Source: Amycolatopsis echigonensis | GTDB lineage: Bacteria; Actinomycetota; Actinomycetes; Mycobacteriales; Pseudonocardiaceae | Assembly: GCF_014174495.1 (NCBI RefSeq) | Contig: NZ_JACJHR010000011.1 | Coordinates: 79,255 to 143,254, forward strand | Direction: 5' to 3' | DNA: 64,000 nucleotides | Part shown: piece after piece, positions 21,557-38,067 of the stretch | Position numbering within the stretch: the first letter of the stretch is position 1 | How the letters are laid out: every line of letters starts with the position of its first letter | Program-made: the position numbers and the translations under genes | Notes under the pieces: model-generated | Databases searched by the model: none | The model's input: only the letters and a program-made list of their open reading frames with translations | Told to the model about the DNA's origin: nothing

Positions 21557-21568
21557 GCGGGAGGACGT

Positions 21569-22690: not shown

Positions 22691-23295
22691 CCCTGCGGAT
22701 CGTGCTGGCCGAGGACCACGCCCTGCTCCGGGAATCCCTGCGCACGGTGTTCAGCCTCGCCGACGACATCGAGGTGGCCGAAGCCGTGGACAACGGCGCC
22801 GACGCGCTCGAAGCCATCCGGCGCGAACGTCCCGACGGAGCCATGGTCGACATCGACATGCCGCGCATGTCCGGCCTGGAGGTCGCCGAGGCGGTGCACG
22901 CCGAGGGCATCCCGTGTGCCCTTCTCGTGGTCACCAGTTACGGCAAACCCGGGTACCTGCACCGCGCCATGCGGGCCGGGGTGCGCGGGTTCGTCACGAA
23001 GAACATCTCGCCGGACGCGCTGATCGACGCCGTGCGCAAGGTGTGCGCCGGCGGACGGCACGTGGACCCCGAAATCGCCGCCGACGCGCTCGCGGTCGGC
23101 GAGACGCCGCTGACCGATCGGGAGCTGGAAGTGCTCCGGCTCTCGGGAGCCGGGCTGCGTCCCGCCGAGATCGGCGCGCGGCTGTCGCTGGCCGAGGGCA
23201 CCGTGCGCAACTACCTGTCGAGCACCCTGACGAAACTGCAGGTCGACAACCGGGTGGCGGCCTACCGCGTCGCGGAGGAGGCCGGGTGGCTGTGA
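22687..23295 (+). CDS. NarL/LuxR-type response regulator
   Basis: 202 aa. The receiver domain has the acidic pocket AEDHALL, the phosphoacceptor Asp in MVDIDMPRMSGLEV and the Lys in FVTKNIS. The LuxR HTH lies at about residues 140-200: LTDRELEVLRLSGAGLRPAE then EGTVRNYLSSTLTKLQVDN. It is the cognate partner of the upstream kinase. Paired with DesK-like kinases, such regulators usually activate a linked exporter. Confidence 0.93.
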   Translation: MTLRIVLAEDHALLRESLRTVFSLADDIEVAEAVDNGADALEAIRRERPDGAMVDIDMPRMSGLEVAEAVHAEGIPCALLVVTSYGKPGYLHRAMRAGVRGFVTKNISPDALIDAVRKVCAGGRHVDPEIAADALAVGETPLTDRELEVLRLSGAGLRPAEIGARLSLAEGTVRNYLSSTLTKLQVDNRVAAYRVAEEAGWL

Positions 23296-24425
23296 CGGAC
23301 CTGTTCGAGCTTTATCAGGACCTGCACCGCCATCCCGAACTCTCCGGCGCCGAGGAGCGCACCGCCGCCGTCCTCGCGCGGGAACTGACCGGCCTGGGCT
23401 TCACCGTGCACCCGGGAATCGGGGGCCATGGTGTCGTCGCGGCGCTGGACAACGGCGAGGGGCCCACGGTCGCGCTGCGGTCCGAACTGGACGCTTTGCC
23501 GCTGACCGAACGCACTGGTTTGTCTTACGCCGCAAGCGGTTCCGCGATGCACGCGTGCGGGCACGACCTGCACCTCGCCGCCGTGGTCGGCGCCGCGGCG
23601 GAGCTGACCGAGGACCGGGCTAGCTGGCGGGGCAGGCTGGTCGTGCTGGGACAGCCGGGCGAGGAGACCCTCGACGGCGCGCTGGCGATGGTGGCCGACG
23701 GCGTGCACGACGTTTTCGGGAAGCCGGACGCGGTGCTGGCCCAACACGCCGTGCCGGGACCGGTGGGGCGGATCGGGCATTCGCCCGGGCCGATCACCGC
23801 GCCGTGCGCCGAACTGGCGATCACCGTGCACGGCCGGGGCGGGCACGCCGCGGTGCCGCACCTCGCGGTCGACCCGGTGGTGCTGGCCGCACATCTCGTG
23901 GTGCGGCTGCAATCGGTGGTGGCACGGGAAACCAGCCCGGCCGAGCCGGTGGTGGTCACGGTCGGCTCGATCCACGCGGGCGACGCGGCCAACGTGATCC
24001 CGTACCGGGTGCGGCTGGGAGTGAGCGTGCGTTCGGCGACCGACGGCGCGCTGAGCCGCGCGCTGACCGCGGTGGAGCGCGTGTGCCGCGCTGAGGCCGC
24101 CGCGTCCGGGGCACCGGTCGAGCCGGAGATCCAGACGGTCCGCTCGGCCCCCGCGACGATCAACGACCGGCAGCTCACGCTCGCCGTGCGGGGCGCACAG
24201 CTGGCTGCCCTCGGCCCGAACCTCGTCTCCTGGACGCCGCCGGTGGCCGCGGCCGAGGACGTGAGCCACCTGGCTGAGGGCGCGCCCCTGTGCTACTGGA
24301 CGCTCGGCGTCGGCGACCGCGGAACCAACCACTCGCCGGACTTCGCCCCGTCTCCCGAGGCACTGCCGGCGGCCGTGCGGGCGCTGGTGCTCGCCGCGCA
24401 GGCGGTCTTCGCGCCCGGACGCTGA
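23292..24425 (+). CDS. M20-family amidohydrolase/peptidase
   Basis: 377 aa from GTG 23292 (GTGA overlap with the regulator stop); GTG 23286 is an alternative. It matches the M20D aminoacylase/HipO/AbgB group: ELYQDLHRHPELSGAEERTA, HACGHDLHLAAVVGAA with metal ligands, GQPGEETLDGA (catalytic Glu), and HGRGGHAAVPHLAVDP of the lid domain. It would hydrolyse an N-acyl amino acid or amide. Its position between the regulator and the RiPP precursors makes a role in leader or by-product breakdown, or resistance, possible but unproven. Confidence 0.88.
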   Translation: MTDLFELYQDLHRHPELSGAEERTAAVLARELTGLGFTVHPGIGGHGVVAALDNGEGPTVALRSELDALPLTERTGLSYAASGSAMHACGHDLHLAAVVGAAAELTEDRASWRGRLVVLGQPGEETLDGALAMVADGVHDVFGKPDAVLAQHAVPGPVGRIGHSPGPITAPCAELAITVHGRGGHAAVPHLAVDPVVLAAHLVVRLQSVVARETSPAEPVVVTVGSIHAGDAANVIPYRVRLGVSVRSATDGALSRALTAVERVCRAEAAASGAPVEPEIQTVRSAPATINDRQLTLAVRGAQLAALGPNLVSWTPPVAAAEDVSHLAEGAPLCYWTLGVGDRGTNHSPDFAPSPEALPAAVRALVLAAQAVFAPGR

Positions 24426-24507
24426 GCTATCCGGAGTCAGTACTCAGGGTGACCGCAGCGTAGGCAGCCATGCACTCTTAGCATGACTTTCCTAAGGGAA
24501 CCCTAAA

Positions 24508-24522: not shown

Positions 24523-24583
24523 CTACTCCAGACGGGTGATATCGCTGCGTAACCCGTCTACCGGGTGCCGAGTTTGGTTTACG

Positions 24584-24618: not shown

Positions 24619-24651
24619 GAAACTGGGGAATCAAAAGCCTGGGGGGCTTGC

Positions 24652-24885
24652 ATGATGACCGCTGCTGTCATTTCCGCTTTCGCGGTTGTGTCCGGTTTGC
24701 CCGGAGTATCCGCTACCGGAGCCACCGTTCCGGCACCGCCGAGGTGTGTGCCGAGCACACAGTTCGCCAACGTCGGATTCGAGCTGGCGGAATGGGAGTA
24801 CCTCGGTACTCAGGGCGGGGAATACCGGTACCGCTACAGCTTTAACGGCTGGACTCAGGGCACGGTCGCCTGCACCCCTAGCTGA
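24652..24885 (+). CDS. Small secreted two-cysteine protein at head of RiPP cluster
   Basis: 77 aa (ATG 24652, or 24655). Residues 1-22 form a short signal peptide (MMTAAVISAFAVVSGLPGVS). The mature part of roughly 50 aa has two Cys (in PPRCVPS and VACTPS), which could form a disulfide, and is rich in aromatic residues (EWEYLGTQGGEYRYRYSFNG). It resembles no family I recognise. It lies directly after the predicted promoter and 37 bp before the first precursor gene, so it is probably co-transcribed. It could be an immunity or partner protein, or an unrelated exported protein. Confidence 0.7.
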   Translation: MMTAAVISAFAVVSGLPGVSATGATVPAPPRCVPSTQFANVGFELAEWEYLGTQGGEYRYRYSFNGWTQGTVACTPS

Positions 24886-24922
24886 ATTCCCTTCGCTTTT
24901 ATCGCGGGAGGAGGTGAAAGGA

Positions 24923-25066
24923 ATGCAGGAGATCACCAACGCCGTGGACGCGGTGGAGGAGCTGCAGGTCGAGGAGCTCGTCGAGACCACCGCGGCCGGC
25001 ACCGCCTTCTCGATCGGCAGCGCGGGCTGCCCGTCGAGCGTCGGCACCGCTTCCAGCTTCGGCTGA
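24923..25066 (+). CDS. RiPP precursor peptide 1
   Basis: 47 aa after a strong GGGAGGAGG/AAAGGA site. The acidic leader ends VEELQVEELVETTAAG (residues 11-26). The predicted core TAFSIGSAGCPSSVGTASSF plus a final Gly holds nine Ser/Thr/Cys in 21 residues. The leader pattern EELxVEEL and the core motif CPSSxGT are shared with the next peptides. The AG junction suits cleavage by the C39 peptidase encoded at 27160. Expected modifications are azoles at Cys/Ser/Thr and dehydration of remaining Ser/Thr. Confidence 0.88.
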   Translation: MQEITNAVDAVEELQVEELVETTAAGTAFSIGSAGCPSSVGTASSFG

Positions 25067-25116
25067 GCGCGTCCGAATCCGGAAAAACACTGGTCAGCAC
25101 ATCCGAGGAGATCGAT

Positions 25117-25275
25117 ATGAACGAGTTCGACACCCAGGTCGAGCAGGCGTTCGCCGAGGACATCACGGTGGAGGAGCTGGGCGAGGTGGCCGGCGCCGGC
25201 ACCACGAACACCGGCGGCACCATCAGCTCCACCACCTGCCCGGCGTGCATCGGCACCGCCTTCAGCTGGTCCTGA
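25117..25275 (+). CDS. RiPP precursor peptide 2
   Basis: 52 aa with GAGGAG upstream. Leader MNEFDTQVEQAFAEDITVEE then LGEVAGAG; core from residue 29 begins TTNTGGTISSTTCPACIGTA and ends FSWS. It is the most divergent core: 13 of 24 residues are Ser/Thr/Cys, with two Cys in CPAC. A double-glycine-like GAG marks the cleavage site. Confidence 0.88.
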   Translation: MNEFDTQVEQAFAEDITVEELGEVAGAGTTNTGGTISSTTCPACIGTAFSWS

Positions 25276-25288
25276 GAGGACAACGCAC

Positions 25289-25438
25289 ATGGACATGCAG
25301 GAGTCGCAGGACTTCACCGAAGAACTGACCGTCGAAGAGCTGTCCGACGCCACCGGCGCCGGCTGGTGCGTCGGGTCGGCCGGCACGTTCGGCTGCCCCT
25401 CCAGCGCGGGCTCCTACGGCACCGTCAGCTCGCACTGA
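25289..25438 (+). CDS. RiPP precursor peptide 3
   Basis: 49 aa with AGAGGA 8 nt before ATG 25289; the in-frame ATG 25295 is less well placed. Leader ends TEELTVEELSDATGAG (residue 25); core begins WCVGSAGTFGCPSSAGSYGT and ends VSSH. Two Cys and eight Ser/Thr in the 24-residue core. The 3' end is 22 bp from the next precursor. Confidence 0.88.
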   Translation: MDMQESQDFTEELTVEELSDATGAGWCVGSAGTFGCPSSAGSYGTVSSH

Positions 25439-25460
25439 GCCTCTGAACAGGGAGAACATC

Positions 25461-25610
25461 ATGAACGAAGAGATCTTGGAGCCGGCGACGACCGAGCTGA
25501 CGATCGAGCAGCTGTCGGACGCGCAGGCGGGCAGCTTCTGCCTCGGCAGCGTGGGCACCGCGGGGTGCCCGAGCTCGGCGGGCACGGTCGGCACCGCGAG
25601 CTCGAGCTGA
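25461..25610 (+). CDS. RiPP precursor peptide 4
   Basis: 49 aa with AGGGAGAA upstream. Leader ends TTELTIEQLSDAQAG (residue 24); core begins SFCLGSVGTAGCPSSAGTVG and ends TASSS. It is closest to precursor 3, sharing spacing of Cys, GCPSSAG and the Ser-rich tail, which points to gene duplication. Twelve Ser/Thr/Cys occur in 25 core residues. Confidence 0.88.
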   Translation: MNEEILEPATTELTIEQLSDAQAGSFCLGSVGTAGCPSSAGTVGTASSS

Positions 25611-25659
25611 CAATCCCCTGCCCCATCCGCGGCGAAACGAATTTCGAAGGGAGGTTGCC

Positions 25660-25803
25660 ATGGAGAACGCTACCACGCAGGCCCCGCAGGCCGAGGAGCT
25701 CGTGATCGAGGAACTCACCGAGGCCGGAGCCAGCAATTGTTTCGGAACGGCGGGCAGCATCGGCTGCCCGGTGTGCTTCGGCACCTACGGCTGCGCCACC
25801 TGA
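25660..25803 (+). CDS. RiPP precursor peptide 5
   Basis: 47 aa with AAGGGAGG upstream. Leader ends AEELVIEELTEAGA (residue 24); core begins SNCFGTAGSIGCPVCFGTYG and ends CAT. It is the most Cys-rich core (four Cys), so potentially the most thiazole-rich product. The GCPxx-GT motif is conserved while Ser-Ser is replaced by VC. It is followed by the hairpin at 25836-25882 before the enzyme genes. Confidence 0.88.
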   Translation: MENATTQAPQAEELVIEELTEAGASNCFGTAGSIGCPVCFGTYGCAT

Positions 25804-25835
25804 TCCAGGCGCGTTAGCCGATATTCCACACACCC

Positions 25836-25882
25836 GTGGTCGCCGCCGAATGATGAATCTTTTTATAGCCGGCGGCGACCAC
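25836..25882 (+). terminator. Hairpin between precursor and enzyme genes (attenuator candidate)
   Basis: GTGGTCGCCGCCG (25836-25848) and CGGCGGCGACCAC (25870-25882) are exact reverse complements, 13 bp each, with a 21-nt AU-rich loop including CTTTTTAT. No U-tract follows the stem, so it is either a partial terminator or a 3'-protecting processing structure. Between precursors and modifying enzymes it would raise the precursor-to-enzyme transcript ratio. The next gene starts 39 bp downstream. Confidence 0.65.
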
Positions 25883-25921
25883 GCGGTGCGGATGAACACG
25901 TGCCGAGAAAGGAACTGGGGG

Positions 25922-27163
25922 ATGGCAGAAATCGTCCAGCGGCTGTGGCGGCACTTCGCCCGTCAGGAGCCGTTCGGCAAAGACGCTCCGGGCTTCTTCG
26001 CGGAGCTCGCGGAACGCGCACCGGTGGTGCGGTTCGACGGGATGTGGGTCATTTCCGGCTACGACCTGGTGACCCGGCTCTGCACCCACCCCGGCTTCCC
26101 GATGGCGGCTCCGGTGTTCCAGGAGGACGTCCGCCGGGATAACCCACAGTTTGTTCGCTTCTTCAGCGGCACCATGTCGGTGCGCGCCGCCGAGGAGCAC
26201 CAGCGGCTACGAAGCGTGCTCACCGGAGCTTTTTCCGGCCGCCGGCTGGCCGCGCTGCGCGGCCGGATCGACGAGGTGGTGGCCGAGTTGCTGGCCGAAC
26301 CCCTCCGGCGCGGCGAGGCCGAGTTCGTGGCCGACATCGCGACGCCGCTGCCCGCGCGGGTCACCGCCGTGCTGCTCGGCATCCCTCCGGCCGACCGTGA
26401 CCTGGTCACCGCGAGGGCGACCGGCATGATGAACCAGCTGGCCGCCGGTTTTCTCGCCGAAGCGCATCCCGAGGCCGGTCCGCCGATCACCGCCGCGGAG
26501 TTCGCCGAGCTGCGCGAGTACGTCGCCGGCCAGCTCGCCCGGCGCCGCGCGGAACCGGCCGACGACCTGATCGGGCACCTTGCCCAGGCGCAGCAGGACG
26601 GCAAGCTCTCCGCCGACGAAGCCGTCGACATGGTGCTCCTGCTGTTCATGACCGGCCTCGACACGGTGACCGCCGCGCTCGCCAACACGCTCGTCGTCCT
26701 GTCCGAGCGCCCGGAGATCGCCGCGGCGCTGGCCGCCGACGAGCAGCGCGCCGACCGCGTGTTCGCCGAGGCGATCCGGCTGCGCACGCCGGTCGCGTTC
26801 GGCTCGCGCCAGGTCACGCACGACCTGTCCGTCGGCACCCTGGACTTCAAGGCGGGCGACACCGTCATCCTGGCTTTCGCCGCCGCCAACCTCGACCCGC
26901 GCAAGTTCGCCGAGCCGCTGGAGTTCCGGTGGGATCGGCCGATCACCGGCAACGTCGCGTTCGGCCACGGCAGCTACTACTGCCTTGGCAGCGCGCTGGC
27001 CGCGATGACCGCGCAGTCGCTGCTTCAGGCGGTGCACCACCGGCTGCCGACCCCGAGCCGTCCGCTCGCCGAACTGCCGTGGCGGCAGTCGCTGGCCTTT
27101 CCGACCCCGCGCGTGCTGCCGGTGACCTTCGCCCCGGCGCTCGCGGAAAGCGGTGCGCGGTGA
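25922..27163 (+). CDS. Cytochrome P450 of the RiPP cluster
   Basis: 413 aa from ATG 25922 (after AAAGGAACTGGGGG). The heme-ligand Cys354 lies in FGHGSYYCLGSALA; the usual His two before Cys is Tyr here. The I-helix motif is LLLFMTGLDTVTAALA and the K-helix ExxR is EAIR. Soluble bacterial class needing ferredoxin partners, none of which is encoded nearby. It overlaps the C39-ABC gene by 4 bp (GTGA), so it belongs to the biosynthetic operon. It presumably hydroxylates, epoxidises or crosslinks the peptide; the site is unknown. Confidence 0.93.
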   Translation: MAEIVQRLWRHFARQEPFGKDAPGFFAELAERAPVVRFDGMWVISGYDLVTRLCTHPGFPMAAPVFQEDVRRDNPQFVRFFSGTMSVRAAEEHQRLRSVLTGAFSGRRLAALRGRIDEVVAELLAEPLRRGEAEFVADIATPLPARVTAVLLGIPPADRDLVTARATGMMNQLAAGFLAEAHPEAGPPITAAEFAELREYVAGQLARRRAEPADDLIGHLAQAQQDGKLSADEAVDMVLLLFMTGLDTVTAALANTLVVLSERPEIAAALAADEQRADRVFAEAIRLRTPVAFGSRQVTHDLSVGTLDFKAGDTVILAFAAANLDPRKFAEPLEFRWDRPITGNVAFGHGSYYCLGSALAAMTAQSLLQAVHHRLPTPSRPLAELPWRQSLAFPTPRVLPVTFAPALAESGAR

Positions 27164-29283
27164 GCACCCGCTTCCGCTCCCGCGCGGGCGCCGAGTTCCG
27201 CCAGGTCGAGGAATCCGACTGCGGCGCGGCCTGCCTCGGGATCCTGCTCGCCGGTTTCGGCAAGCACCTCACCTGGCCGGAGCTTTCGCAAGCGTGCGGC
27301 GGCGGACGGGACGGGATCAGCGCCGCGACGCTCGCCCGGCGCGGGCAGCAGTTCGGGCTCACCGTGAGCGCCAAGCGCGTCCGGCTGTCCGGAGCCGAAG
27401 CTGACCTCGCCACCTTGCGCGGACTCGCCGCGCCCGGGGTGGTGTTCGTCGACAACCGGCACTTCGCGGTGCTGGAGCGAGTCGGCCGGAAGGGCCGCGT
27501 GCGGCTGCACGACCCGGCGGCGGGCAGGCTGACACTGTCGCTGGCCGAGTTCCGCACCCGGTTTTCCGGGCTGTACCTGGGTTTCCGGCCCGGTGCCGGG
27601 TTCACGCGCGGTGGCGCGCCGCAGCGGGTGCTGCCGCGCGCGATGCGCTGGCTCGGCGCGGGACTGCCCGCGGTCGTCGGCGCGGTGACCGCGGGCGTGT
27701 TCACCGCCGCGCTGACGGTCACGGCCGCGTTGCTCGCCTGGTCGTTGGTCACCGCGACCGCCGGGCCGAGTGCGCAGTGGCTTCTGACCGCCACCGCAGT
27801 CGGCGTCGCACTGGCGGGCTGGGCGCAGCAACGCTTGCTTTCGGCAGCGCTCCTGCGCACGTCCCTCACGCGGTCGAGCGAACTCGTCGGGCATCTGCTG
27901 CGCTTGCCCGGCAGCTACTTCCACCGCCGGTTCACCGGCGGCGTCGCGGCGCGGGTACAGATCGCCGACACTATCGCGCAGCAGCTCACCACGGTGGTGC
28001 TCCCGGTCGCGGTGAACGCCGCCGCGGTGCTCGGACTGCTCGTCGTGCTGACCGTGCTCGCCCCTGCGGCCGCCGCGGTCCTGCTCGGCAGCACGCTGAT
28101 CACCGCCCTGTTCCTGCGCCTCGGCCGCCGGTCCGGCACCGAACGGCAGTCGACGCTCATGGTCGAGCAGTCGGCGCGCGACGGGCTTTCGCTCAACGTG
28201 CTCTCCGCGATCGACACGGTGAAGGCCGAAGGCAGCGGACGGCAAGCGTTCGCGCGCTGGTCCGCGGCGCAGCGGAAAGTGCTTACCGCGCAACGGAAAG
28301 TCGCGCTGGGCGAGCACAGCTTCGGGCTCGGCGTCACGGCACTGCACGCCGTCGGGTACGCCGTCTGCCTCGCGCTGACCGCACTGGTCGCGCCCAGCGA
28401 AGTCATCACCGTGGCCGTGCTGGCCGGAGTGTGGCAGCTGCACGCGGGCGGGCTGGTCACCGGACTGCACCGCATCGGCGGCCTGCGCAGCAGCTTCGCC
28501 GCGTACGACGACGTGGCGGGCGCCGAGACCGATCCGTCCGATGTGGACACACCCGTCGCCGTGGGCCCGGGCCGCGTCACCGTGCGCGGCCTGCGCTACG
28601 GCTACGACACCAACGCCGAACCGCTGCTGGTCTCGCTGGATCTCGACGTGCCGCCCGGCGGTCGCATGACCTTGGTGGGCCCGAGCGGCTGTGGCAAGTC
28701 GACATTGGCGAAGGTGCTGGCCGGACTCGTGCGGCCGTGGTCGGGCGTGGCGCTGGTCGACGGGAAGCGCACCGCGGACCTTCCGCCTTCGGTGCGGCCG
28801 TCGCTGGTCGGGTACGTGCCGCAGCGGCCCGCGTTCTTCGAGGGCACCGTGCGGGAAAACCTGGAGCTGGGCACGCGGCTGCCGGACGACGCGATCGCCG
28901 CCGCCCTCGCCGACGCCCAGCTCACCGAAACGATCGCCCTGCGCGGCGGCGTCGACGGAGCTACGGTGAGCCAGCAGGCCCGCAACTTCTCCGGCGGCGA
29001 GCGGCAACGGCTCGCGCTGGCCCGCGCGCTCGCCCGCAACCCGCGCGTCCTCGTACTCGACGAAGCGACGAGCGCGGTCGAAACAGCTCTCGCCGGACGG
29101 ATCGACGCGGCGCTGCGGGCCCGTGGCACCACGACGATCGTGGTGGCGCACCGGCTTTCCGAAGTCCGCGCCGACGACACCGTCGTGCTGCTGGACCGCG
29201 GGAAGGTGCGTGTCTACGGGACGCACGAAGACCTCGTCGCACACGCCCGCGGGTATCGCGACTTCGCGGAGGTGGCCGGATGA
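27160..29283 (+). CDS. C39-peptidase ABC transporter (leader removal and export)
   Basis: 707 aa from GTG 27160. The N-terminal C39 domain has oxyanion Gln15 and catalytic Cys21 (QVEESDCGAACLG), His101 (VDNRHFAVLE) and Asp118 (LHDPAAG), so it looks active. Then come five or six membrane helices and the ATPase: Walker A GPSGCGKST, signature NFSGGERQR, Walker B VLVLDEATSA. It should cut precursors at the AG/GA site and export cores. Together with the next gene it resembles the paired NHLM-type transporter set. ATGA overlap with the following gene. Confidence 0.93.
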   Translation: MSTRFRSRAGAEFRQVEESDCGAACLGILLAGFGKHLTWPELSQACGGGRDGISAATLARRGQQFGLTVSAKRVRLSGAEADLATLRGLAAPGVVFVDNRHFAVLERVGRKGRVRLHDPAAGRLTLSLAEFRTRFSGLYLGFRPGAGFTRGGAPQRVLPRAMRWLGAGLPAVVGAVTAGVFTAALTVTAALLAWSLVTATAGPSAQWLLTATAVGVALAGWAQQRLLSAALLRTSLTRSSELVGHLLRLPGSYFHRRFTGGVAARVQIADTIAQQLTTVVLPVAVNAAAVLGLLVVLTVLAPAAAAVLLGSTLITALFLRLGRRSGTERQSTLMVEQSARDGLSLNVLSAIDTVKAEGSGRQAFARWSAAQRKVLTAQRKVALGEHSFGLGVTALHAVGYAVCLALTALVAPSEVITVAVLAGVWQLHAGGLVTGLHRIGGLRSSFAAYDDVAGAETDPSDVDTPVAVGPGRVTVRGLRYGYDTNAEPLLVSLDLDVPPGGRMTLVGPSGCGKSTLAKVLAGLVRPWSGVALVDGKRTADLPPSVRPSLVGYVPQRPAFFEGTVRENLELGTRLPDDAIAAALADAQLTETIALRGGVDGATVSQQARNFSGGERQRLALARALARNPRVLVLDEATSAVETALAGRIDAALRARGTTTIVVAHRLSEVRADDTVVLLDRGKVRVYGTHEDLVAHARGYRDFAEVAG

Positions 29284-30995
29284 CCACGCTGCCGCCCGAA
29301 GGAATGACCGGACGCGGACTGCTGTCGTTCGCACTGGCCGGCGAACGGGTCCGGCTGGCGATCACGGCCGTGCTCGGCCTGCTGGCGACGGTCTTCGGAT
29401 TCGTCGTGCCGCTGGCGGGCATGGTGCTGGCCATCGCGATCGCCGCGGCGAACCACGATGCCGTGCCGTACGCCGCCGGAGCGCTCGCCGGGCTGCTCGC
29501 CTTGCAGCTGCTGACCACCGCGGTGGTCGAACGCGGTCTGCTGACCCTCACCGACCGGGCTCAGGACCGGCTCGAATCCGCGCTGTGGCATCGGCTGCTG
29601 AGCCTGCCCTCGGCGTTCTTCCGCCAGTACCCGCTGCGCCGGTTGATGGGCTTCGCCGGCGGCGTCGGCCAGCTGCGCGGACTCCTCGGCAGCGGGGGCC
29701 TGACCGCCGCGCTGCACGCGGTGTTCGCACTCGTCGCGGTCGCGTTGCTGGCCTTGCTCGACCCGTGGCTCGCGGTCGCCGCCACCGGGATGTTCGGGCT
29801 GGTGCTCGGCGCGATGCTGTGGCTTTCCGTGCGCCAGCAACGGCACGACACCGACGTGCTGGCCGCGGTCGACGACGTGCAGGCCGCGGTCTATCCGGCG
29901 ATGCTCGGCATCGACGACGTGCGGGCGTTCGGCGCGCAGTCCTATGTGGTCAGTCGCTGGCGCGAGGCGTTCACGGCGCAGAAACGGTCGGACGACAAGG
30001 GGTTGCGGTACTCGGAGATCGCGAGCGCACTGGCCGTGGCGTGCTATCCGGCATTGCTCGCTGTACTGCTGCCGATGACCGCCGGGCTCGGGTTCACCGC
30101 GCAGTGGACCGTGGTCATGGTCGCGATGACGCTCAACCTCACCGCCGCGCGGCTGCAGGGCGCGCTGGTCGGCCTGTTCTCGATCGGCCCGGTGCACGCG
30201 CGGCTCGCGCCGGTGCTCACGACGCGTCCGGAAACGCCGCCGGACCCGGTTCCGCTCCCCCGCGCTCGCGGCGCGGTGGTGCTCGACGGCGTGAGCTTCC
30301 GCTATCCCGGCCAGACCCGTGACCTGCTGCAGGACATTTCCCTGCGCATCGAACCGGGCGAATTCGTCGCGCTGGTCGGCGCGTCCGGCGCGGGCAAGTC
30401 GACCCTGCTCCGGCTGCTGCTCGGCCTCGACCACGCCGACCGCGGCCGGGTGCTGGTGGACGGCGTGGACGTCCGCCATTGCGACGTCGACGAGCTGCGG
30501 ACGCGGATCGGCTACGTCGCACAGGACGCCACGCTCATGCGCGGCACCCTCGCCGAGGTGATCTGCGGGGCGGCCGGCGAGACGGACCTGCGCCTGGCCT
30601 GGCAGGCGGCGGAATCGGCACAGCTCGCCGACGTGGTCCGCGCGCTGCCGATGGGCCTGCACACTCAGGTCACCGACGGCGAGAGCGGGCTGTCCGGCGG
30701 CCAGGTGCAACGACTGCTGCTGGCCCGCGCGCTGGCCAAACGCCCGTCCGTGCTGCTGCTCGACGAAGCGACCAGCGCGCTCGACGCCGCCGCGCAGGAA
30801 CTCGTGCGGCGCGCGGTGGACGACTTGCGGCTGACCCGGGTGGTGGTGGCCCATCGGCTCTCCACCATCCGCTCGGCCGACCGGATCGCCGTGCTGGAGC
30901 ACGGCCGCATCGCCACCCTCGGCACGTTCGCCGAGGTGGCCGGCCGTTCGGAGGCTTTCGCCCGGCTGGTGGGCACCGCCCGCCGGCTCGACTGA
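29280..30995 (+). CDS. Second ABC transporter, fused membrane and ATPase domains
   Basis: 571 aa from ATG 29280. Six-helix exporter domain (residues about 20-320), then ATPase with Walker A GASGAGKST, signature LSGGQVQR, Walker B VLLLDEATSALD and H-loop VVAHRLS. No peptidase domain. It probably heterodimerises with the C39 transporter or exports a separate product. Followed by YcaO after 11 bp. Confidence 0.92.
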   Translation: MTTLPPEGMTGRGLLSFALAGERVRLAITAVLGLLATVFGFVVPLAGMVLAIAIAAANHDAVPYAAGALAGLLALQLLTTAVVERGLLTLTDRAQDRLESALWHRLLSLPSAFFRQYPLRRLMGFAGGVGQLRGLLGSGGLTAALHAVFALVAVALLALLDPWLAVAATGMFGLVLGAMLWLSVRQQRHDTDVLAAVDDVQAAVYPAMLGIDDVRAFGAQSYVVSRWREAFTAQKRSDDKGLRYSEIASALAVACYPALLAVLLPMTAGLGFTAQWTVVMVAMTLNLTAARLQGALVGLFSIGPVHARLAPVLTTRPETPPDPVPLPRARGAVVLDGVSFRYPGQTRDLLQDISLRIEPGEFVALVGASGAGKSTLLRLLLGLDHADRGRVLVDGVDVRHCDVDELRTRIGYVAQDATLMRGTLAEVICGAAGETDLRLAWQAAESAQLADVVRALPMGLHTQVTDGESGLSGGQVQRLLLARALAKRPSVLLLDEATSALDAAAQELVRRAVDDLRLTRVVVAHRLSTIRSADRIAVLEHGRIATLGTFAEVAGRSEAFARLVGTARRLD

Positions 30996-31006
30996 GGGGA
31001 ACAACC

Positions 31007-33331
31007 ATGACGAAAAGCATCAACCGGGTCACGAGGTTCAACCGGTCGCTGCGGGTGCTGACGGTGCCCGGCGACGCGGTGTACCTCACCAGTGAGCGGA
31101 CCACGCAGACGCGGCTGGCCGGCACGCTGGTCGAGCGGCTGGCGCCGCTGCTGGCCGACGGGCAGCTGAGCCGCGACGACATCAAGGCCGCGCTCGCCGA
31201 GGCCGACCCCGCGCGCATCGACGTCGCGCTGGACCGGCTGGGCCGCAGCGGCTACGTCGTCGAGGTCGACCCCGAGGTCGACCCGCGCGTCGGCGGCTAC
31301 TGGGAAGCGTCCGGTGTGGACGGGGACGACGCGGTGCGCCGGCTTGCCGCGGCGAACGTGCGCGTGCTGACCGCGGGCGAGGTCGACGCCGCCGGGTTCA
31401 CCGAGGCGTTGCGGGCGCTCGGCACCAACGTGACCAGCGAGCCCGGCGGGTTCACCGTCGTGCTCACCGACGACTACCTGCGCCCGGAACTCGCCGAATG
31501 GGGCAAGCAGTTCCACGAGGCCGGGATGCCGTGGCTTCCGGTGAAGCCGGTCGGCAGCATGATCTGGGTCGGCCCGGTTTTCGAACCCGAGGTCACCGGC
31601 TGCTACGAATGCCTGCGGGTGCGGCTGTCCAACAAGAACGTCCTCGCCTCCTACCTGCGCCAGCGCGGCGTGCTCGACAGCCCCGCACTGGTCAACTCGG
31701 TGACCGGCACCCCGGTCACCCAGGACCTGGCGCACCGGCTCGCCGCGCTGCACGTGGGCAAATGGCTCACCGGGGCGTTCGCCGCGGGACGCGCGGCGAT
31801 GCCGCAGCCGCCGGGCGGGGTCGCCGCGGAATACGGCACGCCGTGGCAGGCCGAGGTCATCACGCTCGACACGATCAGCCTCACCCAGGAGCACCACCCG
31901 TTCCAGCGGCGTCCGCAGTGCCCGCTGTGCGGTGAGCCGGACCTGCAGGCGCGCCGCCAGGAAACGCCCGTGCGGATCGAGTCGCGCCCACGGATGGCAA
32001 GCAGCGACGGCGGATACCGCTCGCGTCCGCCGGAGCAGTTCGTCGCCCGGTACGAGCACCTGATCAGCCCGGTCACCGGACCGATCAGCAACCTCGTGAA
32101 GGTGCCGCTGGAGGTCGAGGGCCTGCACACCTACACCGCGGGCCAGAACTTCGCGATCCCGATGGCGAACGCCAACGACCTGCGGGCGGGGCTGCGCAGT
32201 TGCAGCGCGGGCAAGGGAATGAGCGACGCGCAGGCCAAGGCGTCCGCGCTGGGCGAGGCCATCGAGCGTTACTCCGGCCTGTTCCACGGCGACGAAGCCC
32301 GCCGCACCGCGCGCTACACCGATCTGGATCCGGCCGAGGTGATCCACCCCAACGCGGTGCACCTGTACAGCGAAGCGCAGTTCCGCGACCGGGCCGAATG
32401 GAACGCGCGCCCGTCGCACTTCCACTGGGTCGCCGACGACCTCGACCCGCACGCCGAGGTCGAATGGTCGCCGGTGTGGTCGCTGACCGAGCAGCGCACC
32501 AAGCTGTTCCCCACCTCCGGGCTCTACTTCGCTTACCACCACCCGGAAAACCGGTACCAGGCCGGAGCGAACTCCAACGGCTGCGCCGCGGGCACCAGCC
32601 TCGAGGACGCGGTGCTGCAGGGCTTCATGGAACTCGTCGAACGCGACACGGTCGCGATGTGGTGGTACCACCGGCTGCGCCGCCCGGCCATCGATCTGTC
32701 CACTTTCGACGTTCCCTACTTCGCCGAATGGCAGCAGCGCTACGACGCTCTCGAACGCGACACCTGGGTGCTGGACCTGACCAACGACCTCGGCATCCCG
32801 TCGGTGGCCGCGGTTTCGGTCCGCCGCGACAAGCCCGCGCAGGACATCCTGTTCGCCCTCGGCGCCCACTTCGACGTGGAGGTGGCGATCGGGCGGGCGC
32901 TCTCGGAGATGAACCAGTTCCTGCCCGCGGTGATCGGCATGAAGGCCGACGGTTCGGGCACTTACGCCTACAACGACCCCGACCAGCTGCACTGGTGGCG
33001 CACCGCGACCACCGAGAACCAGCCGTACGTGCTCCCGGCCGAAGGCCCGCGGCGCACCAAGGCCGACTTCGCCCGCTACGAAAGCTCCGATGTCCGCGAC
33101 GACGTGCTGCGCGCCGAGCGGATTGTCGCGGAGCACGGCATGGAAATGCTGGTGCTGGACCAGACTCGCGTCGACATCGGCCTGCCGGTGGTGCGGGTGC
33201 TGGTGCCCGGGATGCGGCACTTCTGGCCCCGCTTCGCGCCCGGCCGGCTGTACGACGTGCCGCTGGAGCTGGGCTGGATCGACCGCAAGCCGTCCGAAGC
33301 CGACCTCAACCCGATTGCGATGTTCCTATGA
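31007..33331 (+). CDS. Fused azoline cyclodehydratase (ThiF-like plus YcaO)
   Basis: 774 aa from ATG 31007 (GGGGAACA upstream). The N-terminal half is the E1/Ocin-ThiF-like leader-binding part with a zinc tetrad Cys199/202 (CYECL) and Cys305/308 (CPLCGE). The YcaO domain follows from about residue 345, with the ATP site RSCSAGKGMSDAQAKASALG and EAIERYSG, and EDAVLQGFMELVERDTVAMW. It ends LNPIAMFL, not the PxPxP seen in many YcaO cyclodehydratases. It should convert Cys/Ser/Thr in the cores to azolines. ATGA overlap with the dehydrogenase gene. Confidence 0.93.
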   Translation: MTKSINRVTRFNRSLRVLTVPGDAVYLTSERTTQTRLAGTLVERLAPLLADGQLSRDDIKAALAEADPARIDVALDRLGRSGYVVEVDPEVDPRVGGYWEASGVDGDDAVRRLAAANVRVLTAGEVDAAGFTEALRALGTNVTSEPGGFTVVLTDDYLRPELAEWGKQFHEAGMPWLPVKPVGSMIWVGPVFEPEVTGCYECLRVRLSNKNVLASYLRQRGVLDSPALVNSVTGTPVTQDLAHRLAALHVGKWLTGAFAAGRAAMPQPPGGVAAEYGTPWQAEVITLDTISLTQEHHPFQRRPQCPLCGEPDLQARRQETPVRIESRPRMASSDGGYRSRPPEQFVARYEHLISPVTGPISNLVKVPLEVEGLHTYTAGQNFAIPMANANDLRAGLRSCSAGKGMSDAQAKASALGEAIERYSGLFHGDEARRTARYTDLDPAEVIHPNAVHLYSEAQFRDRAEWNARPSHFHWVADDLDPHAEVEWSPVWSLTEQRTKLFPTSGLYFAYHHPENRYQAGANSNGCAAGTSLEDAVLQGFMELVERDTVAMWWYHRLRRPAIDLSTFDVPYFAEWQQRYDALERDTWVLDLTNDLGIPSVAAVSVRRDKPAQDILFALGAHFDVEVAIGRALSEMNQFLPAVIGMKADGSGTYAYNDPDQLHWWRTATTENQPYVLPAEGPRRTKADFARYESSDVRDDVLRAERIVAEHGMEMLVLDQTRVDIGLPVVRVLVPGMRHFWPRFAPGRLYDVPLELGWIDRKPSEADLNPIAMFL

Positions 33332-34812
33332 CCACGCTCGAACGCACCGCCGAAGCCGTCGTCACCTTCCGCCGCGACATTTCCTTGCTGCACAAGGACG
33401 ACCAGGTCCTGCTCGGGCTCGCCGACCGCGCGGGCTACCGGCTCAAGGGCGTCGGCGCGCCGATGCTCGAAGCACTCGAGCAGGTCCGCGCCGGGTTGCA
33501 CACCGAAGAGGAACTGGTCGCCGAGCACCCGAACTCGCCGGTCGCCGCCGTGCTGGCCAAGGTGGAACCGTTCCTCGCCGCCGGTTTCCGGCTGCGCGGC
33601 GAGCGCGTGGCCGTGCTGGAACGCACCGGCGTGACGCCGCTGCGGCCCGAACTGCCCGAGATCGCCGGCGGGTGGCTGCGCCTCGGCAAGTTCAGCCTGC
33701 TGCGCCGCCGCGGCGGTGAGCTGGTGATCGAATCGCCGATCGGGAAGTATCGTGCGGTGCTGCTCGACGCGGCGCTCGCCGGGGCCGTGGCCGCGCTCGC
33801 CGTCGCGCGGCCGGTGTCCGAACTGGACGCGGAATGGCATCCCGTGCTGGCCGCGCTGGCTGGTGCCGGTTTCCTCGACCTCGGAACGGACGGCGAGTTT
33901 CCCGCGGACCAGGACGACGTGCTGCGCCAATGGGACGTGCACGACCTGTACTTCCACAGCCGCAGCCGGATCGGGCGCACCGACGAGGCGTTCGGCGGCC
34001 GGTTCCCTTACGTGGGACAGATCGAGCCGCTGCCCGCGGTGAAGCCCGCCCCGGAGGGCCCGGCGATCACGTTGTACCGCCCCGAGTTCGACGTCGTGCG
34101 CTCGGCCGATCCGGGCCTGCAGGAGGCCATCGAGGCGCGCCAGTCCATCCGGACGTACGGCGAGAAGCCGATCACCGCGCAGCAGCTGGGCGAGTTCCTG
34201 TACCGCACCGCGCGGGTGCGCGGCACGTACGGGCCGCGGCCGGAGGCGCGCATGCCGTACGAGGGTTCGAGCCGTCCGTACCCGTGCGGAGGCGCGGGCT
34301 ACGAACTGGAGCTGTACCTGACCGTGCGCCGGTGCGACGGGCTGGAGCCGGGCATCTACCACTACGACGCGGGCGAGCACGTGCTGCGGCTGGTCAACGC
34401 CGACGAGGCCGTACGGGAGGAACTGCTGTCCGTCGCGACGCTGTCGACCGGCGGCCAGGCCGTGCCGGACGTGCTGGTGACCATGACGTCCCGCTTCCAG
34501 CGGCTCTCGTGGAAGTACCAGTCGATCGCCTACGCCGTGACCCTCAAGCACGCCGGCGCGCTGTACCAGACGATGTACCTGGTGGCGACCGCGATGGGGC
34601 TGGCCGGCTGCGGGCTGGGCAGCGGGGACGCCGACGCGTCGGCCCGCGCGTTCAAGCTCGACTACCTGCGGGAGTCCTCGGTCGGCGAGTTCATCCTCGG
34701 CAGCGCCCCTGCGGAACTGCCGGCGCCGGTGAGCGGGGACGGCGCGCTCGACTGGCGCGCGGGCAACGACCCGGGCTGGCAGGCCGAGGCCCTGGCCGCG
34801 CGTAGGCGGTGA
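33328..34812 (+). CDS. SagB-type azoline dehydrogenase (FMN)
   Basis: 494 aa from ATG 33328. The N-terminal third is a leader-binding or scaffold part. The nitroreductase-like domain starts at about residue 265 (AIEARQSIRTYGEKPI), with LELYLTVRRCDGLEPGIYHY and the SagB Lys-Tyr pair at 396-397 (RLSWKYQSIAYAV), then GALYQTMYLVATAMGLAGCG. Expected to oxidise azolines to azoles using FMN. It overlaps both neighbours by 4 bp. Confidence 0.93.
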   Translation: MTTLERTAEAVVTFRRDISLLHKDDQVLLGLADRAGYRLKGVGAPMLEALEQVRAGLHTEEELVAEHPNSPVAAVLAKVEPFLAAGFRLRGERVAVLERTGVTPLRPELPEIAGGWLRLGKFSLLRRRGGELVIESPIGKYRAVLLDAALAGAVAALAVARPVSELDAEWHPVLAALAGAGFLDLGTDGEFPADQDDVLRQWDVHDLYFHSRSRIGRTDEAFGGRFPYVGQIEPLPAVKPAPEGPAITLYRPEFDVVRSADPGLQEAIEARQSIRTYGEKPITAQQLGEFLYRTARVRGTYGPRPEARMPYEGSSRPYPCGGAGYELELYLTVRRCDGLEPGIYHYDAGEHVLRLVNADEAVREELLSVATLSTGGQAVPDVLVTMTSRFQRLSWKYQSIAYAVTLKHAGALYQTMYLVATAMGLAGCGLGSGDADASARAFKLDYLRESSVGEFILGSAPAELPAPVSGDGALDWRAGNDPGWQAEALAARRR

Positions 34813-37040
34813 CGACCGTGGCCGAACTGCTCGTCTCCCGGATCTGCGGGCTGCCCGCCGCGGTGCTCGACGGCCTGCGGGCCCCGGAGACCCTTGCCCT
34901 GCTGGAGGAGGCCGAGGCCGCCGCGGCACGCAAAAACGCGCTGCGCGAACCGGTCTGCGACCTGCTGCACGCCGTCATCGGGCGCGACGGACTGTCGCGC
35001 GACCAGCGGCGCGGGCTCATCCGGCTGCGCCGGGGCGTGTTCAACGACCGCACCGACGAGGCCGGGCTCCGGCTCTCGCGCGAGGTGCTGGCCCCGGCGG
35101 ACGCGGAGCGGCTCGGCGAGTGGCACCAAGCGCTGGTGCGGGAGCGGGAACTGCTGGAAAAGGCGGCTCGGGCGCTGACCGGCGAGCTGGCGGCGGCGCA
35201 GCACGCGGTGTCGGCCGCGTTGCGCCAGCCCGACGTGCTCGCCGGGCTCGCGCTGGCCAGCCCGGAGTTCGTCACGGCCTTCACTGACCGGCCGGAGCTG
35301 GGCAAACCCGGCGGCAGGCTGAGCCGCAGCGCGGTGTCGTATCTGGTGCGGACCACGCTGAAGCCCAGTCCGTTCGGCACATTGACCACGGTCGGCGTCG
35401 GCGGCTTCGCCGGAGCGGTCGATCCCGGCCGGGAGCGCAGGTTGGTGAGTTCTTCGCGCGTCGCCGCGCGGCTCGCCTACGCGGCGCTGGCCAGCGACCC
35501 GGTCGTGATGCCCAATGTGGACACCAGGTTGGTCGGCGACGAGTGGCTCGCCGCGTTGCCGGTCCACCTCAAACGCGGTGGCGTGTACTTCCGCGAGGAC
35601 GAGGTCACGGCGTTGCCCGGCCCAGTGCCGTTCGACGCTCGCCCGCGCCGCCTGCGAGAACTGGCCGCCTTGCTGGGCTGCTCGCTCGACGAGCTGCGCC
35701 GGCTTCTGGATCAGGGCCTGCTGTTGCTGGTGCCGCCGTGGGAGCTGGCCGAACCGCGGCATTTCACGGCGTGGGGCGAACCCGCGCTGGCCGAAGCCGA
35801 AAAAGTCGTTGCCGGCAAGGAAAACGGACGCCAGCGCGCCGAAGCCGTGCTCGCCCTCCGTTCCCGCCTGCGCACGACGTTGGCCGAGCGCGACCCGGCC
35901 CGCGCTGGATGGCTGGACGGACTGGGCCTGGTGCACGAAACCGTCGCGCACGGCCCGGAGCCGGAAACCGTTCCGCCCGAGTGGGTTCCCGGAGAACTGG
36001 ACCGCCTCGAAGGCGTGTTGCGCTCGACGGTGCGGCCCCGGGCGGGTTACTTCGATCTGGTCCGTTTTTTCGTGCACCACTACCGCGACGGCAGCGCCGA
36101 CCTCGCCGAGTTCGCGTTCCGCGCGGTGCGGGACCTGGACCCGATGTGGTGGCTTTCGCGGTGCGCGGTGCCCGACCCGCAAGCGCGTGAGGTGTCCGGG
36201 GCGAGCGTCGGACGGCCCGCGCACTCGGTGTTCTGGCAGGTCGCGGGCGACGCGCTGGTGCTCAACCAGGTCCACCCGGGTTACCTCGGCGCGGTCGCGC
36301 GCTGGGCGGGCGTGCCGGGTCTGTCCGATCAGGTCGAAACGGCGATGGCCGCCCTGCACGAACGGCGTTTCCCGGACGCGGCGGTCTACCAGCTGACCGC
36401 ACACGCCGACTGGACGGATACGCAACGCCCGGGCGTGCGTGCGACGCCAGTCCTGTCCTGGGGAGCCGAACGTGCTTACGGCGGCGTGCCGATCGACGGT
36501 TTCCGCGTGCGCCACGACCCGGCCACCGGCACGCTCGAAATCCTTGACCCAACCGGACGCCCCGCGGCGTTGAGCTATCTCGGCGCGGTGCCCGCACACC
36601 TGCTGCGCGGCGTGCCCCGCGTGCTGCAACTGCTTTCGGACCCGTGGCTGTCGCTCGGCCCGTGGGCACCGACGCCCGGATCTGGCTTCCGCGACCGCGT
36701 GACCGACGGGCGGCTCGTGCTGCGCCGGGCCCGCTGGACGCTGCCCGCGTCGGCGCTCCCGAAGCTCGGCAGCGGCCCCGACCTCGACTTCCTCCGCGCC
36801 GGCCGGATGTTCCGGGCCGAACACGGGCTGCCCGAGCAACTGTTCGTCCGCGGGCTCGCCGCGGGCGGGACGCCGCTGAGCAAACCGCAATGGCTCAGCT
36901 TCGACTCCCCGCTCGCGGCGTGGACGGCGCTGAAAGGCGTGGCCGGCGCGGAGGAACTCGAATTCACCGAAGCGCTGCCCGCCGCGGGTGCGGCAGCCGG
37001 GCGCGTCACGGAATTCCTCACGGTGGTGACCCATGATTGA
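34809..37040 (+). CDS. LanB-type dehydratase, glutamylation subunit
   Basis: 743 aa from GTG 34809. It matches the N-terminal lantibiotic-dehydratase domain: RGLIRLRRGVFNDRT, LVRTTLKPSPFGTLTTVGVG, and WSWGAERAYG-like stretches near the end (LSWGAERAYGGVPIDGFRVR). In split LanB systems this subunit transfers Glu from glutamyl-tRNA to core Ser/Thr. It overlaps the elimination subunit gene by 8 bp. Length is typical of thiopeptide and goadsporin (GodF-like) proteins. Confidence 0.9.
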   Translation: MTTVAELLVSRICGLPAAVLDGLRAPETLALLEEAEAAAARKNALREPVCDLLHAVIGRDGLSRDQRRGLIRLRRGVFNDRTDEAGLRLSREVLAPADAERLGEWHQALVRERELLEKAARALTGELAAAQHAVSAALRQPDVLAGLALASPEFVTAFTDRPELGKPGGRLSRSAVSYLVRTTLKPSPFGTLTTVGVGGFAGAVDPGRERRLVSSSRVAARLAYAALASDPVVMPNVDTRLVGDEWLAALPVHLKRGGVYFREDEVTALPGPVPFDARPRRLRELAALLGCSLDELRRLLDQGLLLLVPPWELAEPRHFTAWGEPALAEAEKVVAGKENGRQRAEAVLALRSRLRTTLAERDPARAGWLDGLGLVHETVAHGPEPETVPPEWVPGELDRLEGVLRSTVRPRAGYFDLVRFFVHHYRDGSADLAEFAFRAVRDLDPMWWLSRCAVPDPQAREVSGASVGRPAHSVFWQVAGDALVLNQVHPGYLGAVARWAGVPGLSDQVETAMAALHERRFPDAAVYQLTAHADWTDTQRPGVRATPVLSWGAERAYGGVPIDGFRVRHDPATGTLEILDPTGRPAALSYLGAVPAHLLRGVPRVLQLLSDPWLSLGPWAPTPGSGFRDRVTDGRLVLRRARWTLPASALPKLGSGPDLDFLRAGRMFRAEHGLPEQLFVRGLAAGGTPLSKPQWLSFDSPLAAWTALKGVAGAEELEFTEALPAAGAAAGRVTEFLTVVTHD

Positions 37041-37839
37041 TGCCGTGCTGCGACCGGAGTGGCGCTATTGGCGGGTTTACGTGCCCGATCTCCGGTCCGT
37101 TCCGACGCTGTTGCGGCAAGTCGTGCACCCATTCGTCGCCGCGCACCGCGAAGGATTGCGGCGGTGGTTTTTCCTGCAGTACATGGACATGTCGGGCCTG
37201 CAGCTGCGCGTACGGTTCAACGCGCGCCCCGAAGCCGCGTCCGAGGTCGAAGCGGACCTGGACCGACGCTTCGCCGAACACGGCGCGGAAGTCGTGAAAC
37301 GCTGGTACGAACCGGAATTGGCGAAATTCCGCGGACGCGACGGCGTGGAGTTCGCCGAACGCGTCGCGCACCTCGGCAGCGAAACCGCCCTGGAACTGCT
37401 GCCCGCCCGGACCCCGGCTCGCCGCATCGCATTGGCCGCGGCCCATACGGCGGTGATCGCCGACGGCTTGCCCACGACGCAGCAGGTGAGTTTTCTGCAC
37501 CAGTACGCGTGGTACTGGTCAGGTCGCGGTGCCCGGACCGTCGCCTGGCGTCCCGCCGCCGCGACCGCGCACCCCGGCGATCCGGCCGCCGTACGCCAAG
37601 CGAGCCGCCTCGCCGAAACCGTGGCGCGGGAACTCGCGAGCGATTCGGTCGGACGCCCGTTGCGCCGTTACGCCGAGCGGTTCTGGGCGGAGTACGAGGA
37701 CTCGGCACGCCGCGTTTCGCCTTACCGGGCCGCTTTCCAGCACGTCCACCTCATGAACAATCGGCTCGGCGCCGTTCCCGGAGAGGAGGCACAAATCGCA
37801 CGGTTGTTGTGGGTGCGACGAATGCGTAGCATCGAATAG
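37033..37839 (+). CDS. LanB-type elimination subunit (SpaB_C)
   Basis: 268 aa from ATG 37033. Family motifs are W-F-LQYMDMSGLQLRVRFNA (with the active-site Arg context), RWYEPELAKFRG, and QHVHLMNNRLGAVPGEE, the late His/NRL block. These residues are kept in glutamate-eliminating enzymes, so it should form Dha/Dhb. The same fold also includes thiopeptide [4+2] pyridine synthases. As this is the only copy and the elimination residues appear intact, elimination is the better call. Confidence 0.85.
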   Translation: MIDAVLRPEWRYWRVYVPDLRSVPTLLRQVVHPFVAAHREGLRRWFFLQYMDMSGLQLRVRFNARPEAASEVEADLDRRFAEHGAEVVKRWYEPELAKFRGRDGVEFAERVAHLGSETALELLPARTPARRIALAAAHTAVIADGLPTTQQVSFLHQYAWYWSGRGARTVAWRPAAATAHPGDPAAVRQASRLAETVARELASDSVGRPLRRYAERFWAEYEDSARRVSPYRAAFQHVHLMNNRLGAVPGEEAQIARLLWVRRMRSIE

Positions 37840-37899
37840 GGGTAATTAGCCAACAAAATCGGCAATCAAAAATAACGACGCCAGACAGGGAGAAAGATC

Positions 37900-38067
37900 A
37901 TGGACTCAGGTTCCAGCGGCGCGGCGAGCAGCATCGGCGACCCGGACGACGACCACCCGAACCCCGTCGGGGACGCAGTGGTCAAGGGCGTGCGCACGGT
38001 GCTCGGCAAACTCGGCCCGGCCGGCAAGAAGGCCGCCGAACAGCTCCCGAAGAAGAAAGACAAGTAG
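37900..38067 (+). CDS. 55-aa charged small protein at the end of the RiPP operon
   Basis: ATG 37900 with AGGGAG 8 nt upstream. The N-terminal half is acidic and Ser/Gly/Asp/Pro-rich (MDSGSSGAASSIGDPDDDHP); the C-terminal half is a basic amphipathic helix (VVKGVRTVLGKLGPAGKKAA) ending in KKKDK. It has no Cys and only Ser-poor C-terminus, so it does not look like a sixth precursor. A strong hairpin follows. Candidate immunity protein, chaperone or helper; function unknown. Confidence 0.65.
   Translation: MDSGSSGAASSIGDPDDDHPNPVGDAVVKGVRTVLGKLGPAGKKAAEQLPKKKDK

Follow-up and report, generated by a model that had tools for sequence, protein, structure and literature searches.

The 64,000-nucleotide stretch of Amycolatopsis echigonensis DNA analysed here (the window, part of contig C13 of a 9.66 Mb genome) contains a predicted biosynthetic locus for ribosomally synthesized and post-translationally modified peptides (RiPPs). 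Five precursor genes, p1 to p5 (24923-25803), are followed in order by genes for a cytochrome P450 (P450), a C39-peptidase ATP-binding cassette (ABC) exporter, a second ABC protein, a fused leader-binding/YcaO protein, a SagB/ThcOx dehydrogenase, the two halves of a split LanB dehydratase (Lant_dehydr_N and Lant_dehydr_C, below LanB_N and LanB_C) and a 55-amino-acid (aa) product. The precursors and the modification enzymes, which carry the argument, are as follows.

24923..25066, + strand: p1 precursor; predicted core GTAFSIGSAGCPSSVGTASSFG; NF033482 35.0 bits; core 19/22 identical in Streptomyces
25117..25275, + strand: p2 precursor, CPAC type; predicted core GTTNTGGTISSTTCPACIGTAFSWS; NF033629 117.8 bits; 23/25 identical in Streptomyces
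25289..25438, + strand: p3 precursor; predicted core GWCVGSAGTFGCPSSAGSYGTVSSH; NF033482 28.5 bits; 22/25 identical in Streptomyces
25461..25610, + strand: p4 precursor; predicted core SFCLGSVGTAGCPSSAGTVGTASSS; NF033482 24.5 bits; 21/25 identical in Streptomyces
25660..25803, + strand: p5 precursor; predicted core NCFGTAGSIGCPVCFGTYGCAT; NF033482 23.5 bits; 19/22 identical in Streptomyces
25922..27163, + strand: cytochrome P450, predicted tailoring oxidase; Pfam p450; heme motif FGHGSYYCLG
31007..33331, + strand: fused leader-binding/YcaO cyclodehydratase, predicted to form azolines; TIGR03604 and TIGR03882 over cut-offs
33328..34812, + strand: SagB/ThcOx flavin mononucleotide (FMN) dehydrogenase, predicted to convert azolines to azoles; TIGR03605 165.6 bits, over cut-off; ThcOx
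34809..37040, + strand: predicted LanB glutamylation half, GodF-like; Pfam Lant_dehydr_N; goadsporin protein 9jhq at E 1.6e-55
37033..37839, + strand: predicted LanB elimination half, GodG-like; Pfam Lant_dehydr_C; profile best on MibB

The products comprise 413 aa for the P450 (437 if an upstream ATG is used), 707 for the C39-ABC exporter, 571 for the second ABC protein, 774 for leader-binding/YcaO, 494 for SagB/ThcOx, and 743 and 268 for LanB_N and LanB_C. Every gene listed in a preliminary description of the window, including those of the split LanB and the 55-aa product, was present with agreeing size and domains. The mostly overlapping starts and stops that it reported were found among the enzyme genes, where neighbours from P450 to LanB_C overlap by 4-8 bases at five of their six junctions and stand 11 bases apart at the sixth, but not among the precursor genes, which are separated by 13-50 bases. 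Each precursor start is preceded by a purine-rich stretch. Five consecutive small open reading frames (ORFs) with shared leader and core patterns do exist as described, but the first of them is 24923-25066 and not the one at 24652.

Predicted cores and their triplet spacing

The precursor families are already catalogued by NCBI. With curated cut-offs of 25 bits for NF033482 ('thiocillin family RiPP') and 60 bits for NF033629 ('RiPP_CPAC'), p1 and p3 passed the former, p4 and p5 stayed just below it and p2 scored 19.0; the latter was passed by p2, with p1, p3 and p5 below the cut-off and p4 not listed. The class is known, because these models cover the precursors and the enzyme logic is that of goadsporin. 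Core starts were placed by the rule for double-glycine-type cleavage; leaders aligned on a conserved Leu end in TAA, AGA, TGA, QAG and GAS at the predicted cut, the site of p5 being the weakest of the five. With this rule the core starts may be off by one or two residues. The five cores are intact and constrained, from which five products are predicted.

The spacing of Ser, Thr and Cys, which does not depend on the exact core starts, is strictly periodic. In every core one of the three possible registers consists entirely of these residues: 7/7, 8/8, 8/8, 8/8 and 7/7 sites in p1 to p5, or 38/38. Shuffled cores, with the register chosen just as freely, gave on average 23.4 such sites and at most 31, and 38 was reached in none of 100,000 shufflings. 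The frequency of Ser/Thr/Cys pairs was 0.33 each at distances 3 and 6, and 0.07-0.16 at the other distances up to 8.

Conservation among orthologues follows the same register. Nine of the 38 register columns vary, all nine within Ser/Thr/Cys, and five of these include Cys, whereas 8 of the 16 non-register Ser/Thr/Cys columns vary, six of the eight to Gly, Ala, Val, Leu or His (Fisher p 0.002, for columns that are not independent). The column comparison used cores of modal length, so that two p2 cores (P0086 and S_p2) were dropped; adding one further p4-type core (P0049) changed no register column. This is the pattern that azoles at the register sites would be expected to leave. A Ser or Thr directly precedes a register site at S13 and S19 in p1, S10 and T13 in p2, and S14 and S23 in both p3 and p4; p5 has none.

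A group of homologous precursors (P0079, P0082, P0084, P0089, P0090, P0092 and P0094-P0098) combines a near-single leader, SEKHQKQIDQVTIDDLSEADE, with differing cores. Two of them are without HQKQ, and the same triplet register is present in both members that were tested.

Conservation of the five cores across genera

RiPP families are for the most part expected to combine variable cores with similar enzymes. What stands out in the present locus is the stronger conservation of the predicted products, whose sequences have changed less than those of their presumed biosynthetic enzymes. Streptomyces genome G818 carries counterparts of the five precursors in identical order, followed by seven counterpart genes. 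The cores of p1 to p5 are 86, 92, 88, 84 and 86% identical to their counterparts and the leaders 39, 42, 42, 33 and 44%; enzyme identities are 46% for the P450, 46 and 47% for the two ABC proteins, 64% for YcaO, 59% for SagB, 42% for LanB_N and 44% for LanB_C. In the core matrix every precursor matched its own counterpart best (84-92%, against 16-64% off the diagonal), whereas in the leader matrix the own counterpart was best in only two of the five rows. At identical core residues 45 of 104 codons differ (43%), compared with 32-52% in the seven enzymes. The core amino acids were thus held while silent positions drifted as in the enzymes, and the core identity is not accounted for by an array transferred recently.

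The same five precursors form arrays in four other Amycolatopsis genomes, and in the two Amycolatopsis compared 119/119 and 116/118 pooled core residues are identical. Single precursor types have homologues in Amycolatopsis, Streptomyces, Kitasatospora and metagenomes; the matches listed under the name Kitasatospora sp. NPDC093558 include p1, p2, p4 and p5, four of the five types.

Such conservation could reflect the demands of the enzymes and not those of a target, inasmuch as all five cores share the triplet register, which YcaO might require. We consider this improbable: each core was kept separately, non-register residues included, while the enzymes fell to 42-64% identity, and one enzyme set that serves five different cores presumably tolerates variation. 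A more serious alternative is that the five peptides, made by the same chemistry, are independent products, so that the array would be a small library of peptides with separate targets or roles and no joint function. The paralogous cores do differ clearly, and relatives with two peptides and a similar enzyme set exist, so five peptides are not essential to the pathway. Independent products would, however, be expected to disappear one by one, whereas the five types persist in fixed order from Amycolatopsis to Streptomyces, across enzymes differing by 36-58%, and four of the five recur among the Kitasatospora matches listed. We regard independence as quite conceivable, while leaning somewhat against it. 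The boldest possibility is a five-component RiPP with strict triplet azole spacing, in which the peptides would work only, or best, as a set and selection would have held the five-membered array fixed while the enzymes drifted. We know of no RiPP with so many obligate parts, and view this one as rather doubtful. Fixed cores and order beside diverging enzymes suggest that the target is demanding or that the peptides act jointly; the locus offers a concrete test of whether RiPPs act as five-part mixtures.

Extent of the locus and its relatives

The preliminary description placed the left boundary at 24652, which proved too narrow, because the genes at 19782-24425 are conserved together with the cluster. 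We take the locus to be 19782-38067, with 19 genes. Its remaining features are listed here.

19782..20699, + strand: ABC ATPase, DrrA-like; NCBIfam drrA 228.9 bits, under the cut-off of 312; start set by homologues
20699..21556, + strand: ABC-2 permease, partner of the ATPase; Pfam ABC2_membrane; start inferred
21569..22690, + strand: histidine kinase; Pfam HisKA_3; conserved with the cluster
22687..23295, + strand: LuxR-type response regulator; Pfam Response_reg and GerE
23292..24425, + strand: M20 amidohydrolase; TIGR01891 265.5 bits, over cut-off
24652..24885, + strand: 77-aa protein with a signal-peptide-like N-terminus, without leader or core pattern
27160..29283, + strand: ABC exporter with a C39 peptidase domain, predicted to remove the leader and secrete the peptides; Pfam Peptidase_C39, ABC_membrane and ABC_tran
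29280..30995, + strand: second subunit of the ABC exporter, with NHLM ABC2 as its nearest type; Pfam; TIGR03797 438 bits, under the cut-off of 709
37900..38067, + strand: 55-aa peptide rich in Lys

The five upstream genes (ATPase, permease, kinase, regulator and M20) accompany the cluster in all four other intact Amycolatopsis loci (G119, G132, G143 and G094), and also in Streptomyces G818, although there they lie downstream of it rather than upstream. The ATPase (57% identical in G818) occurs in 5/5 and the permease in 4/5 of the two-peptide loci described below; this DrrAB-like pair likely provides self-protection or efflux for the producer. The response regulator is 93-100% identical in the four Amycolatopsis loci and 56% in G818, and kinase and regulator, as a two-component system, likely control the cluster. 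The M20 gene, 51% identical in G818, was found with five-peptide loci only, and in none of the fetched stretches of the five two-peptide loci. The C39 domain of the exporter retains its Cys (Cys21), His and Asp motifs.

The ORF at 24652-24885 was rejected as a precursor, its product being secreted-like and missing the leader and core patterns. Its gene occurs in five of 80 genus genomes, exactly those with an intact cluster (the window's own, G000, and the four named above), and therefore belongs to the locus; its nonsynonymous divergence (dN) is below the synonymous one (dS). The 55-aa gene was found in six of the 80, the five intact loci and a decayed one (G139); an immunity or accessory role for its product would be a guess. 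Both small genes are specific to the form that the locus takes in Amycolatopsis: neither was found in the G818 stretches. Neither protein matched Pfam, NCBIfam or PHROGs. In the decayed copy (L043) the dehydratase genes are broken and most other cluster genes were not matched in the stretch, while the 55-aa gene is intact and 85% identical.

The flanking genes, at 18429 on the left and 38613 on the right, adjoin the locus in G119 and G132 as well. The stretches fetched from G143 and G094 contained neither of them, and in these two loci synteny is thus lost on the left as well as on the right. The right-hand neighbour, directly beyond the 55-aa gene, encodes a phosphatidylglycerol lysyltransferase (38613-40337, opposite strand).

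Of 390 genomes of the family, 53 (the window's own among them) contain LanB_N relatives. A locus whose YcaO is 98% identical to that of the window is present in Amycolatopsis orientalis DSM 43388. Two-peptide loci occur in four genomes of the genus Amycolatopsis (G093, G130, G152 and G146) and in a metagenome-assembled genome labelled Mycobacterium sp. (G411). They carry the P450, both exporters, YcaO, SagB and the split LanB, with ATPase, kinase and regulator in 5/5; no 77-aa or 55-aa gene was found in them. Their precursors have TP where the five-peptide cores have CP, and their pump and regulator genes lie downstream.

A class-wide search with the precursor alignment matched 10 of 394 genomes, the window's own counted. 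Among 392 Streptomyces genomes 13 matched, five strong matches being found in G818 only; G478, one of the other 12, has another precursor type. Precursors in relatives were picked by an in-house composition filter, which may miss some. Eight small proteins of the homologue set fell outside the patterns, P0049 with its p4-type core being one of them. YcaO relatives on plasmids amounted to 200 records; in the two inspected (H2 and H4) a lone YcaO gene adjoins a two-component system, and the surroundings are otherwise different. The precursors p3 and P0095 had no match in plasmids. A viral scan with one core motif gave 12 matches, and the core strings were not found in a search of paper texts.

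Some more distant loci also combine several precursors with related enzymes. A wider group (L045, L088, L089, L090, L091, L092, L093 and L094) has three to six candidates each, with cores like TASCPxSSAS and leaders like LPEGNAL, beside LanB_N and YcaO relatives; no close relative of the window's P450 was matched in it. The precursors of another set (L047 and L048) have Cys/Ser/Thr-rich cores and leaders that end near AAD; a YcaO and a relative of LanB_N accompany them. Small GTG-start ORFs, one ending in VEGCVGTAGTLGTIGGCAGTAGTYGCA, lie in L095 (G663) next to an exporter pair that shares 35-39% identity with that of the window.

Predicted products and comparison with known systems

Over nearly its full length the YcaO protein resembles LynD/TruD-type cyclodehydratases: residues 20-772 aligned with LynD (586 bits), and MusD and TruD also matched. 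Elsewhere in the genome, on other contigs, lie another YcaO gene and two additional PF14028 matches (G000:C27:10851-11804 and G000:C14:13395-16353).

The 268-aa LanB_C bears on the choice between a linear and a macrocyclic product. The names given by NCBI, 'thiocillin family' and 'thiopeptide-type', would suggest a thiopeptide cluster forming a macrocyclic pyridine; p1 and p3 exceed the NF033482 cut-off, and LanB_C exceeds that of TIGR03891. The structural model (predicted local distance difference test, pLDDT, 89) is equivocal, elimination domains tying with pyridine synthases and PbtD, TbtD, aza-cyclase entries and TsrL standing among the best fold matches. By profile, however, MibB (8.4e-14) and MadB (3.8e-7) are favoured over the pyridine synthase 7cww (0.0014; TsrE in the sequence table, TsrL in the entry title), with NisB at 0.008 and no PbtD or TbtD match up to E 10. 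NisB residues R784/R786, E823 and H961, which we take to be catalytic like R826, align with R59/R61, E95 and H239 of LanB_C, and R826 aligns with Lys98 (LanB_C numbers counted by hand from the alignment); these five positions of LanB_C are invariant in 24 aligned sequences. By sequence, then, LanB_C appears to be nearer to the elimination domains of LanB proteins than to the pyridine synthases, although the fold does not separate them. A pyridine synthase beside an elimination protein, that is, two PF14028-like proteins, was not found: the locus has one PF14028 protein, and two others of the genome lie on another contig. Nor did inspection of the five cores by eye reveal a conserved Ser pair at a fixed macrocycle spacing. 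A thiopeptide is the least probable reading, and the thiocillin label seems to mislead about the chemistry of these clusters.

The reading that we prefer, and hold with fair confidence, is that five precursors and one goadsporin-like enzyme set likely yield five linear peptides bearing polyazoles and dehydro-residues, probably kept as a set by selection. Linear azole and dehydro-residue peptides had been proposed in the preliminary description, and the 9jhq match, the LynD/TruD-type YcaO and the single PF14028 protein make goadsporin-type enzymes the best account of the locus. The reactions that we infer would begin with the leader-binding/YcaO protein, which would bind the LxVEEL leaders and cyclise every third core residue (Ser, Thr or Cys); aromatisation of the rings to azoles, seven or eight per peptide, would fall to the SagB oxidase. 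The split LanB would then glutamylate and eliminate Ser or Thr directly before an azole, at two sites each in p1 to p4 and none in p5 (0-2 dehydro-residues), and the P450 may oxidise some position of the peptides. The C39 exporter would cut about six residues past the conserved Leu of the leader and secrete the peptides; the DrrAB-like pump would likely protect the producer and the two-component system likely control the cluster. The products are probably antibiotic-like and are predicted to act together.

Several points weigh against this reading. Within Amycolatopsis the dS of the pooled cores is low (0.10 and 0.01), so part of their identity may reflect nucleotide-level constraint or chance. 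The comparison between genera is based mainly on one Streptomyces locus, and the single register is not kept in one two-peptide core. The P450 is the enzyme that most separates the family from goadsporin; its relatives are present in G818, in all five two-peptide loci and in each of the four Amycolatopsis loci that are intact besides that of the window. What is observed directly is the gene content and order, the conservation of the cores and their triplet register; the reactions, the P450 target, a joint function and bioactivity are predicted.

Beyond the preliminary description, the analysis adds a larger locus and NCBI models that name the precursors. What is new is the conservation of the set between genera, the same five precursors occurring in the same order in Streptomyces with cores that outlast the enzymes, and the 38/38 triplet register. 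The register gives sharp mass predictions for cryptic clusters that NCBI names only through their resemblance to thiocillin. With 20.03 Da lost at each register site, the monoisotopic masses predicted for the five products are about 1770.66 (p1), 2223.83 (p2), 2164.75 (p3), 1993.73 (p4) and 1987.67 (p5); they apply to peptides that carry no P450 or terminal modification and presuppose correct leader cuts.

Accounts of goadsporin, coryneazolisins and dehydrazoles contained no description of this locus, though the wider literature may hold one. The NCBI models NF033482 and NF033629 name no product, and the thiocillin label implies a pyridine, which the window locus does not seem able to form. 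In the available part of their account (PMC4603692), coryneazolisins combine azole enzymes with lanthipeptide-like dehydratases, lack a [4+2] protein and have no known product. The present locus resembles them in these enzymes, a comparison by description only, but coryneazolisins have two D proteins and other precursors. Dehydrazoles such as carnazolamide likewise unite azoles and dehydro-residues in one peptide, but their dehydratase is of the DUF4135 type and their leaders are nitrile-hydratase-like (PMC10676384, available in part); no Pfam match to the LanM-like DUF4135 dehydratase was found among the locus proteins scanned.

Goadsporin, encoded by godA-H of Streptomyces sp. TP-A0584, is the closest system, and the following comparisons refer to the available part of its account (PMC5303826). 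The preliminary description considered the family unlike goadsporin, and this holds: goadsporin has one structural gene as against five precursors here, the account names no P450, and six azoles contrast with an uninterrupted triplet register of seven or eight sites. No relative of GodH, the GNAT N-acetyltransferase of goadsporin, was found among the locus genes scanned. The likeness lies in the enzymes, namely YcaO (GodD), the FMN dehydrogenase (GodE), the split LanB (GodF/GodG, the elimination half as predicted), whose N-terminal half matches the goadsporin structure 9jhq, and the peptidase-ABC transporter (GodB). It extends to the peptides: in goadsporin T2, T5 and C8, three apart, become azoles, and dehydroalanine at S4 and S14 requires azoles at T5 and S15, a Ser-before-azole geometry (S4/T5, S14/S15) that is also that of the SS pairs in the present cores.
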